Position numbers and translations under genes: made by a program | Notes under the pieces: model-generated | What the model was told of the DNA's origin: nothing | Database searches by the model: none | The model's input: only the letters and a program-made list of their open reading frames with translations | In this document: positions 53,044 through 61,428 of the stretch, in pieces | How positions within the stretch are numbered: position 1 is the stretch's first letter | Layout of the letters: each line of letters starts with the position of its first letter | From: Brevundimonas aveniformis DSM 17977 | GTDB lineage: Bacteria; Pseudomonadota; Alphaproteobacteria; Caulobacterales; Caulobacteraceae | NCBI RefSeq assembly: GCF_000428765.1 | Contig: NZ_AUAO01000001.1 | Location: 744,001 to 808,000, forward strand | DNA: 64,000 nucleotides | Direction: 5' to 3'

Positions 53044-53955
53044 TCAGGCTACGACAGAGGAAAACGTCGCGTCCAGCTGGAAGGTCTCTGCCAGAAGTCG
53101 GGCCTCGGCCTCCCGACTCGACCCGGTGCGCCAGGCCACAACGATCTCGCGCCGCGGGGTATCGGCAGAGATCGGGCGCACCACGACCGCGGGATTGTCG
53201 GCCAGGCCGGCCCGCACCGCCATTTCGGGCAAGAACGAAACTCCCAGACCCGATCCGACCATCTGGACCAGGGTGTGCAGACTGGTGGCGGCAAAGACAT
53301 CGTCGCCCTTGGGCGGCTCAATGTGAAAGGCGGCCAAGGCCTGATCGCGCAAGCAATGGCCGTCCTCCAGCAGGATCAGATCCTCGCTTTTCAGGGAACC
53401 GGGCCGGATCGGTCCGGGTGCCGCCAGCGGGTGACCAGCCGGTGCCGCCGCCAGGATCGCATCGTCACCAATGCGGGCGTGATCGATGCCGCTGGTCGAA
53501 TAGGGAAGGGCGATGATGGCGGCATCCAGCTGGCCGGCCTTGAGCGCCTTGATCAGGCCGGGCGTCAGGTCCTCGCGGATGAAGAGCTTGAGAGCCGGAT
53601 AGGCCGCCTTCACGCCCGGCAGTTTGGCGGGCAGAAGGAAGGGCGCGATCGTCGGAATAATGCCCAGTCGAAACCGGCCCGACAGGGGGCGACCGGCGCT
53701 TTGCGCGGCCTCGACCAGATCCTCGGTGCGAGCCAGGACATCTTCGGCCCGTTTGACGGCCTCGGCCCCGACGGCCGTTAGCTGGATGCGTCCCCGCGTG
53801 CGTTCAACGACAGGCGCGCCCAGTATTTTCTCTAGTTCCTGAACCCCAGCGGAGAGAGCCGGCTGGCTGACGAAGGCGGCCTCGGCTGCTCGCGAGAAGG
53901 AGCGGTGCTCAGCCAGGAGCTTGAGGTACTGAAGCTGGCGCAGGGTCGGAAGCAT
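53044..53955 (-). CDS. oxyR: LysR-family peroxide regulator OxyR with a single cysteine
   Basis: 303 aa. N-terminal LysR HTH (LRQLQYLKLLAEHRSFSRAAEAAFVSQPALSAGVQELEKILGAPVVER). The effector domain carries LLEDGHCLRDQA, with C201 aligning with E. coli C199. The resolving-cysteine position (C208) is F210 here, and C201 is the only cysteine in the protein. Divergent from ahpC-ahpD, a LTTR box sits 11 bp upstream of its start. It would respond to peroxide without the canonical intramolecular disulphide. Confidence 0.92.
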   Translation of the reverse strand: MLPTLRQLQYLKLLAEHRSFSRAAEAAFVSQPALSAGVQELEKILGAPVVERTRGRIQLTAVGAEAVKRAEDVLARTEDLVEAAQSAGRPLSGRFRLGIIPTIAPFLLPAKLPGVKAAYPALKLFIREDLTPGLIKALKAGQLDAAIIALPYSTSGIDHARIGDDAILAAAPAGHPLAAPGPIRPGSLKSEDLILLEDGHCLRDQALAAFHIEPPKGDDVFAATSLHTLVQMVGSGLGVSFLPEMAVRAGLADNPAVVVRPISADTPRREIVVAWRTGSSREAEARLLAETFQLDATFSSVVA

Positions 53956-53965
53956 AAGGATATCC

Positions 53966-53978
53966 TAGATGCGATCTA
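53966..53978. promoter_or_regulatory. LTTR-type inverted repeat, probable OxyR autoregulatory site
   Basis: A perfect TAGAT-GCG-ATCTA inverted repeat, of the T-N11-A form, lies 10 bases upstream of the oxyR ATG. It fits LysR-type autoregulation. Confidence 0.6.
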
Positions 53979-54038
53979 TGATTTTTCCCAGTTAGATCAA
54001 CCAGGGTTATGCCCCGGGGGTGATTCACGATGATCGAT

Positions 54039-54051
54039 TCTATGGGCTAGA
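54039..54051. promoter_or_regulatory. LTTR-type half-palindrome cluster upstream of ahpC
   Basis: TCTA-TGGGC-TAGA (T-N11-A) flanked by two ATCGAT copies (54033-54038 and 54060-54065). Located between the oxyR-proximal box and the putative ahpC promoter; a plausible OxyR activator site. Confidence 0.45.
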
Positions 54052-54086
54052 TAAGAAATATCGATGGAGAATCGCGCACTCCAAGG

Positions 54087-54109
54087 TTGACTTTGTGCGC
54101 CGCACAAAG
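54087..54109 (+). promoter_or_regulatory. TTGACT overlapping an 8-bp palindrome upstream of ahpC
   Basis: TTGACT (54087-54092) resembles a -35 box but no -10 is evident at the expected distance. It overlaps CTTTGTGC-GCC-GCACAAAG (54091-54109), a perfect 8-bp inverted repeat. This may be an operator or 5'-UTR stem for ahpC. Confidence 0.4.
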
Positions 54110-54175
54110 CACTTCGCAGGTGCAGCGTCGCTCCCCCGACGCCCCTCACTCATGTCCGTCTATAAGGAGAGCGCA

Positions 54176-54730
54176 ATGCTCGGCGTCGGCCAGAAACTGC
54201 CTGAATTCAAGATCGTCGGTGTAAAGCCCGGCTTCAACCAACACGAAGAAAACGGTGTTTCGGCCTTCGAGCCGGTAACCGAAGCCAGCTTCGACGGCCA
54301 GTGGAAGGTTATCTTCTTCTACCCGAAGGACTTCACCTTCGTCTGTCCGACCGAGATCGCCGAGTTCGCCCGTCTGAACCGCGAGTTCGCAGACCGCGAC
54401 GCCGTGGTGCTGGGCGGCTCGACCGACAATGAGTTCACCAAGCTGGCCTGGCGCCGCGACCATGCCGATCTGGACAAGCTGCCGATGTGGCAGTTCGCCG
54501 ACAACGGGGGCAGGTTCGCCCGGGCGCTCGGGGTCCTGGATGAAGACGAAGGCGTCGCTCAGCGCGCGACCTTTGTCGTCGACCCGCACAACGTCATCCA
54601 GCACGTCTATGTCACCAGCCTGAACGTCGGCCGCGCGCCGGCCGACACCCTGCGGGTGCTCGACGCCCTGCAAACCGACGAACTGTGCCCGTGTAACCGC
54701 CCGCTGGGTGGTGAGACGCTGGCGGCCTAA
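54176..54730 (+). CDS. ahpC: Alkyl hydroperoxide reductase AhpC (2-Cys peroxiredoxin)
   Basis: 184 aa from ATG 54176, fixed by AAGGAG eight bases upstream; the frame extends upstream to 54020 without ribosome sites. Peroxidatic C57 is in FTFVCPTEI; the C-terminus has C171 and C173 (CPCNRP) as resolving cysteines, as in AhpD-linked AhpC proteins. It reduces H2O2, alkyl hydroperoxides and peroxynitrite. It is followed by ahpD and divergent from oxyR. Confidence 0.96.
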   Translation: MLGVGQKLPEFKIVGVKPGFNQHEENGVSAFEPVTEASFDGQWKVIFFYPKDFTFVCPTEIAEFARLNREFADRDAVVLGGSTDNEFTKLAWRRDHADLDKLPMWQFADNGGRFARALGVLDEDEGVAQRATFVVDPHNVIQHVYVTSLNVGRAPADTLRVLDALQTDELCPCNRPLGGETLAA

Positions 54731-54746
54731 AGGCCCCAGCCGGATT

Positions 54747-54783
54747 CGGGGGCGCGCACCCCTCCTCCCCTCGCGCGCCCCCG
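54747..54783 (+). promoter_or_regulatory. Strong intercistronic hairpin between ahpC and ahpD
   Basis: A perfect 11-bp stem CGGGGGCGCGC / GCGCGCCCCCG (54747-54757 and 54773-54783) with a 15-base pyrimidine-rich loop and no T-tract. Probably stabilises the ahpC message or gives partial termination, so ahpC exceeds ahpD. Confidence 0.6.
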
Positions 54784-54821
54784 GTCCCCCCTTGTTCAGA
54801 TTTCCCAACCGGAGACAGTCG

Positions 54822-55355
54822 ATGTCGATCGACACCCTGCGTGACGCCCTGCCGTCCTATGCCAAAGACCTGTCACTGAACCTGTCGTCCCTGGCCTCTG
54901 AGACGGTCCTGTCGGACGCTCAGAAGTGGGGCTGTTTCCTGGCCTGTGCCTATGCCATCGGCGAAGCGCAGACCGTGCGGGCCTTCGAGGCTGCGGCGTC
55001 CCAGCGTCTGTCGCCTGAAGCCATGACGGCTGCCAAGTCGGCCGCGGCGATCATGGGGATGAACAACGTCTATTATCGGTCGCTGCACCTGATGCACAAC
55101 GGCGAGTACAAGACCCTGCCGGCGCGCCTGCGCATGAATATCCTGGCCAATCCTGGTGCGCCCAAGGTCGAGTACGAGCTGTGGTGTACGGCGGTCTCGG
55201 CCATCAATGGCTGCGGGGCCTGTATCGACGCCCACGAGAAAACGCTGCGCGAACATGGCGCGACCAATGTGCAGATTCAGGCGTCTCTGCGGATTGCCGC
55301 CGTCGTCAATGCGGTGAGCCGGGTGCTGGCCGCCGAAGCGGCCCTCAACAGCTAG
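54822..55355 (+). CDS. ahpD: Alkylhydroperoxidase AhpD
   Basis: 177 aa from ATG 54822 with GGAG upstream. The AhpD fold contains the active-site CxxC, C131-C134 in NGCGACIDAHEK, with H138, and EYELWCTAVSAI before it. It reduces oxidised AhpC using lipoyl groups in known homologues (with Lpd/SucB in mycobacteria). Paired with ahpC, replacing AhpF. Confidence 0.94.
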   Translation: MSIDTLRDALPSYAKDLSLNLSSLASETVLSDAQKWGCFLACAYAIGEAQTVRAFEAAASQRLSPEAMTAAKSAAAIMGMNNVYYRSLHLMHNGEYKTLPARLRMNILANPGAPKVEYELWCTAVSAINGCGACIDAHEKTLREHGATNVQIQASLRIAAVVNAVSRVLAAEAALNS

Positions 55356-55357
55356 GA

Positions 55358-57196
55358 TCAGCCGGCGATCGCCGGCGTATCGTTCTGTTCGGCGCGTGCG
55401 ATCTCGGTCGGCACGCGCGGGAGCCAGATGGCCGCTGTCGAGCCGACGCCGGGTGTGCTGCCCAGGCGCAAGGCCCCGCCGAGGGATCGTGCAAAGCCAC
55501 GCGCTTGCGCCAGTCCCAGACCTTCAGCTCCAGGCCGCGTCGTGAAGAAGGGCTCCTGCGCCCGGACCAGGACGTCGGGGTCCATGCCGGGCCCCCGATC
55601 CGAAACCGTGATCTTTACATAGTCACCGACGACGAGGTCTGGGTCGCCGTCGGCCACGCTGGCCGACTCAATCCGCACGCGGATGGGCTCGGTCGGGCCC
55701 TGAGCCTGGCGCGCATTGATCATCAAGGCCGTCAGGGCGCTTTGCAGCCGCACCGGATCAAAGCGGGCATAGGCGGCGTTCTCGGCCACCTGGACCTCAA
55801 CGGCTCCGGCCTGAATAGGAGACGGAAGGCCGCGCACGATCGTGCCGACATCCAAGGCCCGCAACGTCGTCTCGTCGCCACGGGAATAGGCTGAAAGCTG
55901 TCGCGTCAGGACCTCGCCCCGCCGTCCGGCCGTGAGGGCTGCCTCCGCAACCCGACGCACCCGCTCGGGATTATCGGCCTGGCGCCCAATCATGTCGAGC
56001 GCGCCCAGCATGAGTGTAAGAAGGGCGTTGAAGTCCGTCGCGAGGCCGCCCGTCATTCGGCCGATGTCCTCAAGGCGGCGTCCCTCGGCGGTGTTGGAAT
56101 CCTCACGACGACGGCGCGCCTCGGACGCCGCCAGGGTCTGGTTCAGAGCCGTCTGCGTTTCCTCAGCCTGAGCCTCGGCGCGAGTCCGGGCCTGTTCCGC
56201 GATGGCGAGGCGCTCGGTAAGCTCTGCCAGGGCAGCTTGGGTATCCGCCTGTTCAGTGGCGTGGGTGTCGGTTTCCTCGAAGGGCAGATCGGTGACGTCC
56301 TCTCCGACCAGAAGGACGGCGTCGATGGCATCCTCAAGCGGCAGGGGCATGGCGGTCCAGCGGACGAACCGGCGCTCCTGGCCAACGGTCAGGGATTCCT
56401 CAATCGCGCTGGCAGGGACTTCGCCGGACTGGATGACTTGCGCCGCAAAGGCGTTGACGGCTTCCCAGCGATGCTCGGGTGAAATCAACTCGGCAAAGGG
56501 CCTGCCCCGCAGTGCGTCGGCGTCAAGACCCAGCATCCGGGCGACGGCAGCATTGGCTTCGCGGACCTGGCCTTCGGCCCCGATCACAAGAACCGGATTG
56601 GGCGCGGCGTCGAACACCCGGCGGGTCAGTTCGGCCTCGGGTGAAGCGGCTGGATTCAGGCTGTCGATCTCGACGATGGCGGCACTGGAACCGATAACCT
56701 GACCCAGGCTGTTCAGGATCGGCATGGCGGTCACCGACACCAGCAACCTCCGCTTGGTGCCAGGATGAGCGATGACATGCTGGAAGCCCTTGACCGTCTG
56801 GCCGCGCAGGGCGCGCGCATTGGGCAACAGTTCCGGCGGGATGAGCCGACCGTCGGGGTAGGTGATGCCCCAGGTGGCCGAGTGGAACCTCAGGCCGATC
56901 AGTTCCTGATCCTTGCGTCCCAGAAGGTGGTGGGCGGCGCGGTTGGCGAAAATGAAGCGGCCCTGGGTGTCTGTCTCGACCAAGGCGACAGGCAGGGAGG
57001 TGAGGATCTGGTTCAGCCGGGTTTCATGGATTTCGGCTTCGGTACGGAAACGATCCCGCTCGACTGTCGCATTTCGGTACGCCCAGGCGGCGCGACTGGT
57101 CAGGAAAATGAACAGCAAGGCAATTGCCGTTGCCAGCGCCAAAGCCAGGCCCAGCACCAGAACCCAGTTGACGTCGCCTTCCATGATCATACGCAT
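55358..57196 (-). CDS. PAS-domain sensor kinase with Thr in place of the phospho-acceptor His
   Basis: 612 aa if starting at ATG 57196 (57190 or 57184 also possible; a 75-bp upstream extension is unlikely). One N-terminal transmembrane span (VLVLGLALALATAIALLFIFL), then two PAS domains (ILTSLPVALVETDTQGRFIFAN and RVFDAAPNPVLVIGAEGQVREAN), a coiled coil and a HATPase (NARQAQG, DRGPGMDPD, GLGLAQARGF). The DHp box reads GRMTGGLATDFNALLTL; in the HWE/HisKA relatives this is GxxAHDFN, so the acceptor His is T387 (codon 56036-56038). Autophosphorylation should fail; it may be a pseudokinase, or phosphorylation uses another residue. It converges with ahpD. Confidence 0.88.
   Translation of the reverse strand: MRMIMEGDVNWVLVLGLALALATAIALLFIFLTSRAAWAYRNATVERDRFRTEAEIHETRLNQILTSLPVALVETDTQGRFIFANRAAHHLLGRKDQELIGLRFHSATWGITYPDGRLIPPELLPNARALRGQTVKGFQHVIAHPGTKRRLLVSVTAMPILNSLGQVIGSSAAIVEIDSLNPAASPEAELTRRVFDAAPNPVLVIGAEGQVREANAAVARMLGLDADALRGRPFAELISPEHRWEAVNAFAAQVIQSGEVPASAIEESLTVGQERRFVRWTAMPLPLEDAIDAVLLVGEDVTDLPFEETDTHATEQADTQAALAELTERLAIAEQARTRAEAQAEETQTALNQTLAASEARRRREDSNTAEGRRLEDIGRMTGGLATDFNALLTLMLGALDMIGRQADNPERVRRVAEAALTAGRRGEVLTRQLSAYSRGDETTLRALDVGTIVRGLPSPIQAGAVEVQVAENAAYARFDPVRLQSALTALMINARQAQGPTEPIRVRIESASVADGDPDLVVGDYVKITVSDRGPGMDPDVLVRAQEPFFTTRPGAEGLGLAQARGFARSLGGALRLGSTPGVGSTAAIWLPRVPTEIARAEQNDTPAIAG
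55361..55376. repeat. 16-bp perfect palindrome between ahpD and kinase gene ends
   Basis: GCCGGCGATCGCCGGC is fully self-complementary and lies 5 bp after the ahpD stop, inside the last codons of the convergent kinase. No T-tract on either side. Could help end transcription from both directions. Confidence 0.5.
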
Positions 57197-57302: not shown

Positions 57303-57992
57303 TTAGGTGTCGTCAGGCGGGGCCGAGCGTGCTTGGTGCCGCCGGCGGGCGTCTAGGACGGCAATGCCGACGGGAATCAGCCAATAGGCAAAGCCCGGTA
57401 GCCCGTAGCGAAGGCCCTGGGGGACGACCTGGGCAAGGACCGCTGACAGGAGGCCTGATGCGGCGATCACGCACCAGGTCTGGGTCCATTCCGCCAGACG
57501 GGGGCGATCCGCGGTGCTGACACCCAAGGCGACAGCGCGAAGGGTTCCGTACCGAAACAGCCAGACATAAAGCCCGCTCAGGATCGCAAAACCCAGGCCG
57601 TAGATCGTGAAGGTCGCCTTCAGATCATCCAGGCTGGCGATCATTTCGCCGCCTGGAAGTCGCCCACCAGACAGATAGTGGGCCGCCGTATTGGCGAGCA
57701 TCTGCAGCGGCATCACATAGACGAGAGACATGAAGACAATGGCCAGGCTGATCACGACCACCATGTTGTCACGGCGCGGTACCAGGTGGCCAAAACTGCG
57801 ATGCCCAAGCCAGAACATGGTGATCAGGCCAAACCCCATGGCAAAGGCAGGCACGCGGGCTAGGCCGGCATAGAGGCCCTCCACGCTGGTCGGAGCTTCA
57901 CCGCCCGCGACGATCAGCAGGGTCACCGCAAAGGCGAAGGCCGCATCGACGAAGGCGTCCAGGCGGTGGCTGTCCCTTTCGGCTGTCTCCAA
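57303..57992 (-). CDS. TMEM175/DUF1211-family membrane channel-like protein
   Basis: 229 aa from a TTG at 57992, fixed by GGAGG; the open frame upstream runs into the tRNA-Gly gene and is not coding. Six expected helices. The first has HRLDAFVDAAFAFAVTLLIV, matching the bacterial TMEM175 pore helix (RxxAFSDAVFA), but the FSD filter motif reads FVD. Further helices: WLGHRSFGHL, VVVISLAIVFMSLVYVMPLQM. Bacterial members are K+ channels; conduction by this variant is uncertain. It is transcribed toward the PAS kinase gene. Confidence 0.82.
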   Translation of the reverse strand: METAERDSHRLDAFVDAAFAFAVTLLIVAGGEAPTSVEGLYAGLARVPAFAMGFGLITMFWLGHRSFGHLVPRRDNMVVVISLAIVFMSLVYVMPLQMLANTAAHYLSGGRLPGGEMIASLDDLKATFTIYGLGFAILSGLYVWLFRYGTLRAVALGVSTADRPRLAEWTQTWCVIAASGLLSAVLAQVVPQGLRYGLPGFAYWLIPVGIAVLDARRRHQARSAPPDDT

Positions 57993-58065
57993 GTGCTCGC
58001 CTCCGTTCTGACGGAACGAAGGTGCGGGAGTCTGTTCAGAACCACAAGTTGGGAGAGCCGGAAAC

Positions 58066-58091
58066 AAAAAGCCCGGTCGCGGGGACCGGGC
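58066..58091 (-). terminator. Intrinsic terminator after tRNA-Gly
   Basis: Perfect 8-bp stem GCCCGGTC / GACCGGGC (58071-58078 and 58084-58091), followed on the minus strand by five T (58066-58070). It lies just beyond the 3' end of the tRNA gene. Confidence 0.9.
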
Positions 58092-58108
58092 CTGATCAAA
58101 TCTTCGAC

Positions 58109-58183
58109 TGGAGCGGGCGAGGCGATTCGAACGCCCGACCCTCACCTTGGCAAGGTGATGCTCTACCCCTGAGCTACGCCCGC
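58109..58183 (-). tRNA. tRNA-Gly (anticodon GCC), CCA encoded
   Basis: 75 nt on the minus strand. Acceptor stem GCGGGCG / CGCCCGC, D-loop with AGGGGTA, anticodon loop TTGCCAA between TCACC and GGTGA, T-loop TTCGAAT, discriminator T and encoded CCA. It reads Gly GGC/GGU codons. A terminator follows. Confidence 0.96.
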
Positions 58184-59979: not shown

Positions 59980-61428
59980 ATGGCCGTGAACGACGACTTT
60001 GATCCGACACCTCCTGCCCCACGGCGTGGGCCGCGTCGGCGTGCCTGGATCAATGGCCTGTCGGCCCGGTTGCTGCTGCTGACGGCGGCCTTTGCCATTG
60101 CTGTAGACCTGCTGATCCTGTTTCCGGCCGCCGCCAGCTTTCACGAACGCTGGGTGACGGACCGCGTCCGCGCCGCCGAGGTGGCCTCGCTGGTGGTGGA
60201 GGCGGCCCCCTATGCGACGGTCGAGGATAGTCTGGCGGACCGCCTGCTGGTTGGGGTCGGAGCCGACACGGTGGTGCTTCAGGAGAACGGCATCCGCCGC
60301 CTGTTGCGCGGCACGCCCAAGGAAGGGGCAACGCCCCACCTGATTGATCTTCGCGAGTCTGATCTGGCGGCGCGACTGCTGGACCCGTGGCTGACGCTGC
60401 TGGGGCCGGATGATCGGCGGATTCAGGTCATAGCGGCCCCGCGCTGGCGTTCGGGTGACTTCATCGACATCGTCGCCGAAGCGGCACCCTTGAAGGCCGA
60501 ACTGCGAACCTATGTCCTGCAGATCGTGTTTGCCTCGCTGGTGATCTCGGTCCTGGCCGGGGGGCTGCTCTATGCCGGTCTGGTCATTCTGGTGCTCGAG
60601 CCGGTCCGCCGCGTCACCCAGACCATCGAGCGTTTCCGCGATGACCCGGAAGCTGACCCCCGACCCATCCGCCACGAGCGGGTCGACGAGATCGGCCGCG
60701 TCGAGGACGAGCTGAACCGCATGCAGCAGGAGGTGCGATCAGCCTTGAGGTCCCGCGCACGACTGGCGGCGTTGGGCGAGGCGGTGGCCAAGATCAGCCA
60801 TGACCTTCGCAACATGCTGACAGCGGCCCAGATGGCGTCGGATCGTCTCGCGGATTCCGGTGATCCTACCGTGACTCGCGCCCTGCCGCGTCTGGAGCGG
60901 GCGCTGGATCGGGCGTTGAACCTGGCCCAGGACGTTCTGGCCTATGGTCGTTCGGAAGAGCCTCGTCCCGACCCCCGCCCGCTGAGACTGGTCCCAGCCA
61001 TCCATGCGGCTGCGGAAGACGCCGGGCTGACAGATCAGGGCGTGCGGCTGATCCAGCGCGCGCCCTCTCGGCTGAGAGTCGAGGCGGACCCTGAGCATCT
61101 GCACCGGATTCTGGTCAATCTGATGCGCAATGCTCGTGAGGCCATTGAGGCCGATCCTGAGCGTGACGGTATCGGGCGCGTGTCCCTGTCGGCGGTGCGG
61201 ACAGGCGACAAGGTCGAGATCCGGGTGCGTGACGATGGGCCGGGCCTTCCGGCCCGCGCGCGCGAACGCCTGTTCCTGCCGTTCCAGGGATCGACCCGCC
61301 GCAATGGTGCCGGTCTGGGCCTTCCGATTGCCCGTGAGCTGGCCCAGGCTGGAGGCGGCGATCTGGTACTGGACGTCACCGGGCCGGGCGGGACGGTGTT
61401 CCTGCTGACCCTGCCGGCCCAGCACTGA
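59980..61428 (+). CDS. HAMP-domain sensor histidine kinase
   Basis: 482 aa. Two membrane helices (LLLLTAAFAIAVDLLILFPAA near 31-51 and VFASLVISVLAGGLLYAGLVILVL near 183-207) flank a periplasmic domain of about 130 residues. HAMP follows (EPVRRVTQTIERFRDDPEADPRPI), then DHp with H274 in KISHDLRN and a HATPase (NLMRNAREAIE, RDDGPGLP, GAGLGLPIARELA). The cognate response regulator is not adjacent. Caulobacterales have a similar kinase near rplU-rpmA; the signal is unknown. Confidence 0.92.
   Translation: MAVNDDFDPTPPAPRRGPRRRAWINGLSARLLLLTAAFAIAVDLLILFPAAASFHERWVTDRVRAAEVASLVVEAAPYATVEDSLADRLLVGVGADTVVLQENGIRRLLRGTPKEGATPHLIDLRESDLAARLLDPWLTLLGPDDRRIQVIAAPRWRSGDFIDIVAEAAPLKAELRTYVLQIVFASLVISVLAGGLLYAGLVILVLEPVRRVTQTIERFRDDPEADPRPIRHERVDEIGRVEDELNRMQQEVRSALRSRARLAALGEAVAKISHDLRNMLTAAQMASDRLADSGDPTVTRALPRLERALDRALNLAQDVLAYGRSEEPRPDPRPLRLVPAIHAAAEDAGLTDQGVRLIQRAPSRLRVEADPEHLHRILVNLMRNAREAIEADPERDGIGRVSLSAVRTGDKVEIRVRDDGPGLPARARERLFLPFQGSTRRNGAGLGLPIARELAQAGGGDLVLDVTGPGGTVFLLTLPAQH

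Follow-up and report, generated by a model that had tools for sequence, protein, structure and literature searches.

The gene at positions 55358–57196 (minus strand) of the window, the 64,000-nucleotide stretch of Brevundimonas aveniformis DSM 17977 analyzed here, encodes a TM-PAS-PAS-coil-DHp-HATPase protein with a Thr residue in the place of the phospho-acceptor His. We propose, with a probability of about two in three, that the protein is a membrane PAS sensor whose ancestor was a hybrid histidine kinase of the HDFNN class, that its DHp helix carries no phosphate, and that it signals by PAS-controlled binding of a partner to the DHp/CA module. The His is absent here, its column has changed repeatedly across the genus, and the His+4 Asn and the receiver domain have been lost. 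The DHp scaffold and the residues of the nucleotide pocket are conserved, and the whole CA domain has been lost in Asticcacaulis. The gene thus combines the sequence features of a pseudo-histidine kinase, namely a kinase-like fold, a lost catalytic residue and purifying selection. Among the explanations put forward in an earlier note on this DNA, a pseudokinase is the best supported, and the role of allosteric partner to another kinase may also apply.

Gene and domain organization

The open reading frame extends from 57271 to 55358 and encodes 637 amino acids when counted from the first ATG. The earlier note placed the start at 57196, which agrees with the M26/M28 region that is invariant as the start region among homologues (M28 is invariant in 18 of them) and gives a protein of 612 amino acids from M26. 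All features described below lie on the minus strand. A hydrophobic stretch (WVLVLGLALALATAIALLFIFL; residues about 36–58, 57098–57166) forms the N-terminal transmembrane segment. It is followed by PAS1 (residues about 86–205, 56657–57016; LRFHSATWGITYPDGR ... ALRGQTVKGFQ; Pfam PAS_4/PAS_9), which is the most conserved part of the family as judged by the invariant columns of homologues, and by PAS2 (residues about 212–330, 56282–56638; PAS_4). A variable coiled-coil linker (residues about 331–398, 56078–56281), which has the highest dN of the protein, leads into the DHp dimerization helices (residues about 399–470, 55862–56077), which were delimited by alignment to CckA (PDB 5idj) and by the column table. 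The HATPase_c (CA) domain occupies residues about 471–620 (55412–55861) and matches the CckA CA domain (5idm) with a TM-score of 0.70–0.72.

Two PAS domains and HATPase_c (63 bits; cut-off 26.4) score above the Pfam cut-offs, and HisKA scores below (14.4 bits; cut-off 26.9), as does genuine CckA at a similarly low 18.3 bits. The NCBIfam models gave no specific family name for the protein. The AlphaFold2 model (mean pLDDT 78.5, pTM 0.39) folds into a long N-terminal helix, the PAS folds, a long helical coil running into the DHp, and the CA domain, with a domain arrangement that is not reliable. Its nearest solved structures in Foldseek are kinase cores, including CckA and a NifL-NifA complex.

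Acceptor position in relatives and in other kinases

The codon at 56036–56038 is ACG (Thr412), within the motif GGLATDFNALL, and Thr412 aligns exactly onto the phospho-acceptor His of CckA (5idj, E 3e-20). The acceptor His in the DHp by which an active HDFNN kinase is recognized is replaced, and the substitution reported in the earlier note is confirmed by both the codon and the alignment. That note had taken GxxAHDFNNLL as the expected motif, but NN after HDF is not general in this family, as nearly all close homologues read (H/Q)DFNALL.

With one genome sampled per species, the gene was detected (E ≤ 1e-60) in 80 of the 131 genomes of the genus and in 66 of the 110 good genomes, and it is therefore accessory in Brevundimonas. 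Three relatives, about 66–79% identical (individual values 79, 78 and 68%), form the closest clade, and the remaining full-length copies are 45–50% identical. Beyond Brevundimonas, the family occurs in Peiella, Asticcacaulis, two Caulobacter isolates (a separate genus group) and two MAGs. In 76 aligned Brevundimonas and Peiella homologues, the acceptor column holds His in 46, Gln in 27, Arg in two and Thr solely in this genome; the three closest relatives have Gln. Twelve Asticcacaulis sequences have Ala (5), Asn (3), Gln (3) or His (1). Since the loss of His recurs in homologues, Thr412 is not a chance substitution. The adjoining Asp413 (56033–56035) is invariant in all 76 and all 12 sequences.

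Three canonical relatives (L158, L160 and L169; 1093–1137 amino acids) have the acceptor His in an HDFNN motif, a full G2 box and a receiver domain, the last of which is absent from the protein studied here. They also have Asn at His+4, a position that serves phosphatase activity in typical HisKA kinases; this residue is Ala in 73 of the 76 Brevundimonas and Peiella sequences, including Ala416 (56024–56026). The Asticcacaulis orthologues keep the DHp helices and have neither a CA nor a receiver domain. Five of them (L183, L179, L182, L187 and L189; 584–968 amino acids) end just past the DHp helices, and most have an extra coiled coil or PAS domain. In one Brevundimonas MAG, the ORF (L166:5917-7059) ends after PAS2 and the coil, and nothing downstream of it matches the DHp or CA domain; it may be a truncated version or reflect an assembly fault at low coverage.

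As a control, CckA homologues in Brevundimonas read GGVAHDFNN in 30 of 30 cases, and the single AHDFNN match in the B. aveniformis genome is CckA (L211). We read 30 ATPase-domain loci of this genome, leaving out three further weak matches. The true kinases keep His except for the gene studied here, a DivL-like gene (L201, Tyr) and L209 (Arg). The last of these (L209:1015-2682; G000:C2, near 588752) encodes a CBS-HisKA-HATPase-receiver protein with SRELRTPL at the acceptor site. A few genes away from the putative pseudokinase gene, at 59980–61428, lies an ordinary HAMP histidine kinase with an intact acceptor (ISHDLRNML).

Evolution of the acceptor position

Trees were built with the His columns left out, and changes between His and non-His were then counted. 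The full tree requires at least nine changes, eight of them forced by supported branches. The reduced tree, which leaves out the longest rows and long branches, Asticcacaulis and the g17 lineage/L146, requires seven (bootstrap 6–8), five of them forced. One tree came from a quick search and the other was built without a mixture model, and the long branches L150, L153, L068 and L146 are unsure. These counts represent changes and not losses because His can be regained from Gln by one base; if the loss were irreversible, the full tree would be read as requiring about 14 losses.

Within the Brevundimonas portion of the tree, nine changes fall in the acceptor column. No change occurs there at G404, R405, Asp413, A424, L425, Asn519, D558, G560, G562, E573–F576, T578 or G584–L587. 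Because Asp413 is invariant also in Asticcacaulis, where the CA domain is missing, its role there must be something other than catalysis.

Strong purifying selection acts on the ATPase domain: its dN/dS against the two nearest relatives (L112 and L110) is about 0.06–0.09, values that are rough because synonymous sites there approach saturation. Among 33 disjoint pairs, the His pairs had a median CA dN/dS of 0.106 and the non-His pairs one of 0.140, which is not a significant difference (Mann-Whitney p 0.24) and thus gives no clear sign of relaxation. The summed values (0.13 for His pairs and 0.25 for non-His pairs) suggest that some relaxation in non-His pairs is possible.

These patterns bear on the explanation that the members with His are ordinary kinases and that each His-less lineage is separately a pseudokinase or a decaying copy. 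In its favor, one clade of at least 27 sequences keeps the His without exception, and some Gln pairs have a somewhat elevated CA dN/dS. As about 60% of the homologues keep the His, some constraint on it may remain, and those members could be active kinases. However, loss of the His+4 Asn, the first Gly of the G2 box and the receiver dates to the common ancestor and precedes that of the His, and the Gln lineages have intact reading frames on which purifying selection acts. We therefore regard this explanation as unlikely.

ATPase domain

The earlier note described the ATP-binding domain as complete. The HATPase_c score agrees with this description, and the N-box Asn519 (55715–55717), the G1 box DRGPG (558–562, 55586–55600) and the F box EPFFTT (573–578, 55538–55555) are retained, but the first Asn of the N box is absent and the G2 box GLGL (584–587, 55511–55522) lacks the first Gly of GxGLGL, reading AEGLGL instead of GTGLGL. 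Both residues are missing in all Brevundimonas members. Judged from these motifs, the domain is nearly, but not fully, canonical. The short ATP lid was considered as a mark of a dead kinase and rejected, because ADP-bound ZraS (9jfj) aligns with a similarly short lid.

A domain of this kind might still be active and phosphorylate the His of a partner kinase in a mixed dimer, for which CckA, the only other AHDFNN kinase found, would be the candidate. The core residues of the ATP pocket never change on the tree, CckA is both the best solved-structure relative (E 3e-20) and the carrier of the genome's single AHDFNN match, and kinase heterodimers such as RetS-GacS and ChrS-HrrS are known (PMC12189002, PMC9491836). 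Conservation of the nucleotide pocket would be equal in an active trans-kinase and in a module that signals by binding, so it is shared by both readings. Against trans-phosphorylation, the first G2 Gly and the first N-box Asn are missing throughout Brevundimonas, the Asticcacaulis orthologues retain the DHp without any CA domain, and the DHp-CA region is only 29% identical to that of CckA. We consider this activity improbable.

Two further explanations concern Thr412 itself. The earlier note had allowed that homologues might have His here and that the codon might be a sequencing error. Many homologues do have His, but His-less relatives are numerous and phylogenetically scattered. Thr is found in a single assembly, as an error or a pseudogene would predict; however, ACG differs at two bases from the CAG codon that the three nearest relatives have here, so that a read error at one base does not account for the missing His. 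Moreover, the ORF is intact with a CA dN/dS below 0.1, and non-His residues occur in many independent assemblies. We rejected both error and pseudogene as very improbable. Thr can in principle carry phosphate, but a shift of the acceptor to Thr412 is the least credible explanation and was dropped, because Thr occurs in one genome, its place is taken by Gln in the nearest relatives and by Arg, Asn or Ala in others, no non-His residue is common to the family, and we know of no HATPase-type kinase that phosphorylates Thr in the DHp. From the homologous sequences, Thr412 appears to be the endpoint of a pattern and not a new acceptor.

Gene neighborhood

In its closest clade only, the putative pseudokinase gene directly adjoins genes for a LysR-type regulator, an AhpC-like peroxiredoxin and an AhpD-like protein (53044–55355). 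On the other side, it adjoins a TMEM175/DUF1211-like membrane gene (57303–58145), and many Brevundimonas genomes have a gene of this kind close to the homologue. Most Brevundimonas copies adjoin a small membrane gene and a dihydrolipoamide dehydrogenase-like gene. Orthology is supported by neighbors 27/28, which are common to the canonical SZAS-4 gene (L169) and the Asticcacaulis orthologues, and by the TMEM175-like and small membrane neighbors, which recur between the closest clade and other Brevundimonas. No conserved operon partner was found among the neighborhoods of the homologues, and there is no obvious response regulator among the neighbors of the gene at 55358–57196.

Proposed mechanism

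In the mechanism that we favor, the protein would descend from an HDFNN-class hybrid histidine kinase and its DHp helix would be unable to take phosphate. The PAS domains would sense a signal and control the conformation of the dimeric DHp/CA module by way of the coiled coil. This module would then bind or release a candidate partner (another kinase, a response regulator or some other protein). The scheme, with ATP or ADP probably acting as a structural ligand, would resemble the way in which NifL or DivL works. The protein is expected to bind nucleotide and to work through protein contacts, and signaling probably occurs by partner binding and not by phosphate transfer. The members that still bear the His presumably do not depend on it. 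The order of losses, with the receiver and the His+4 Asn first, then the His repeatedly, and the CA domain in Asticcacaulis, while the DHp scaffold and PAS1 stayed constant, fits an output through a binding surface.

More tentatively, the whole Brevundimonas family, including its His-bearing members, might be a phosphotransfer-independent, nucleotide-gated PAS module. With the Caulobacter-type hybrid kinases and the ATPase-less Asticcacaulis proteins as its two ends, it might preserve a series of steps from a histidine kinase to a non-enzymatic sensor.

Pseudo-histidine kinases have so far been recognized in a handful of isolated examples (DivL, NifL and RocA). Here, intact, His-less and ATPase-less stages occur together in one orthologous family of closely related and largely environmental bacteria, and within one genus the catalytic residue has changed several times separately. 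The family is a natural experiment on what use a histidine kinase has once phosphotransfer is gone, and it also raises the question of whether the presence of the His safely indicates kinase activity.

Comparison with known systems

CckA is the best solved relative (5idj) and shares the HDFNN-class DHp and the CA domain. In contrast to the protein studied here, it keeps HDFNN in 30 of 30 homologues, carries a receiver and is encoded by a separate gene (L211), which scores 1046 bits with the equivalog model NF046026 (cut-off 1000), compared with 81 bits for the present protein. Action on a partner kinase has been suggested for the pseudokinases ChrS of Corynebacterium and RocA (PMC9491836, PMC7028121). 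As far as known, they belong to an unrelated sequence class, and in ChrS a frameshift that arose during laboratory evolution removed the CA domain.

DivL of Caulobacter has no kinase or phosphatase activity, binds ATP weakly, and reads DivK~P with its DHp (PMC4211667). It is also a PAS-rich, kinase-like protein of the Caulobacterales with a replaced acceptor His (Tyr550), and it is the nearest pseudo-histidine kinase by taxonomy. Its DHp is, however, of the LRTPL type with Tyr, whereas ours reads ATDFNALL; the B. aveniformis genome has a separate DivL-like gene (L201, SYELRTPL), and DivL matches the present protein weakly (4q20, E 9e-4).

NifL of Azotobacter vinelandii (PAS1-PAS2-H-GHKL) is an anti-activator of NifA without kinase activity, in which ADP bound to the GHKL domain strengthens partner binding (PMC8063818, PMC9866876), and a 1994 paper by Woodley and Drummond, which PMC8063818 cites, reports in its title that the His is redundant. 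It has the same PAS, PAS, H, GHKL order as the protein described here, and Foldseek ranks the NifL-NifA complex (9qq6) second among the matches to our model. The GHKL region of Klebsiella NifL has little similarity to that domain, none of it recognizable (PMC9866876), which resembles the Asticcacaulis orthologues without a CA domain. Unlike NifL, the present protein has an N-terminal transmembrane segment and scores 40.9 bits with TIGR02938 (cut-off 242); no NifA gene lies beside its gene, where the neighbors are AhpC/AhpD and TMEM175-like genes. By analogy, NifL would provide the nearest known way of working, and the best reading of these comparisons is that the family may work like NifL or DivL while belonging to neither.
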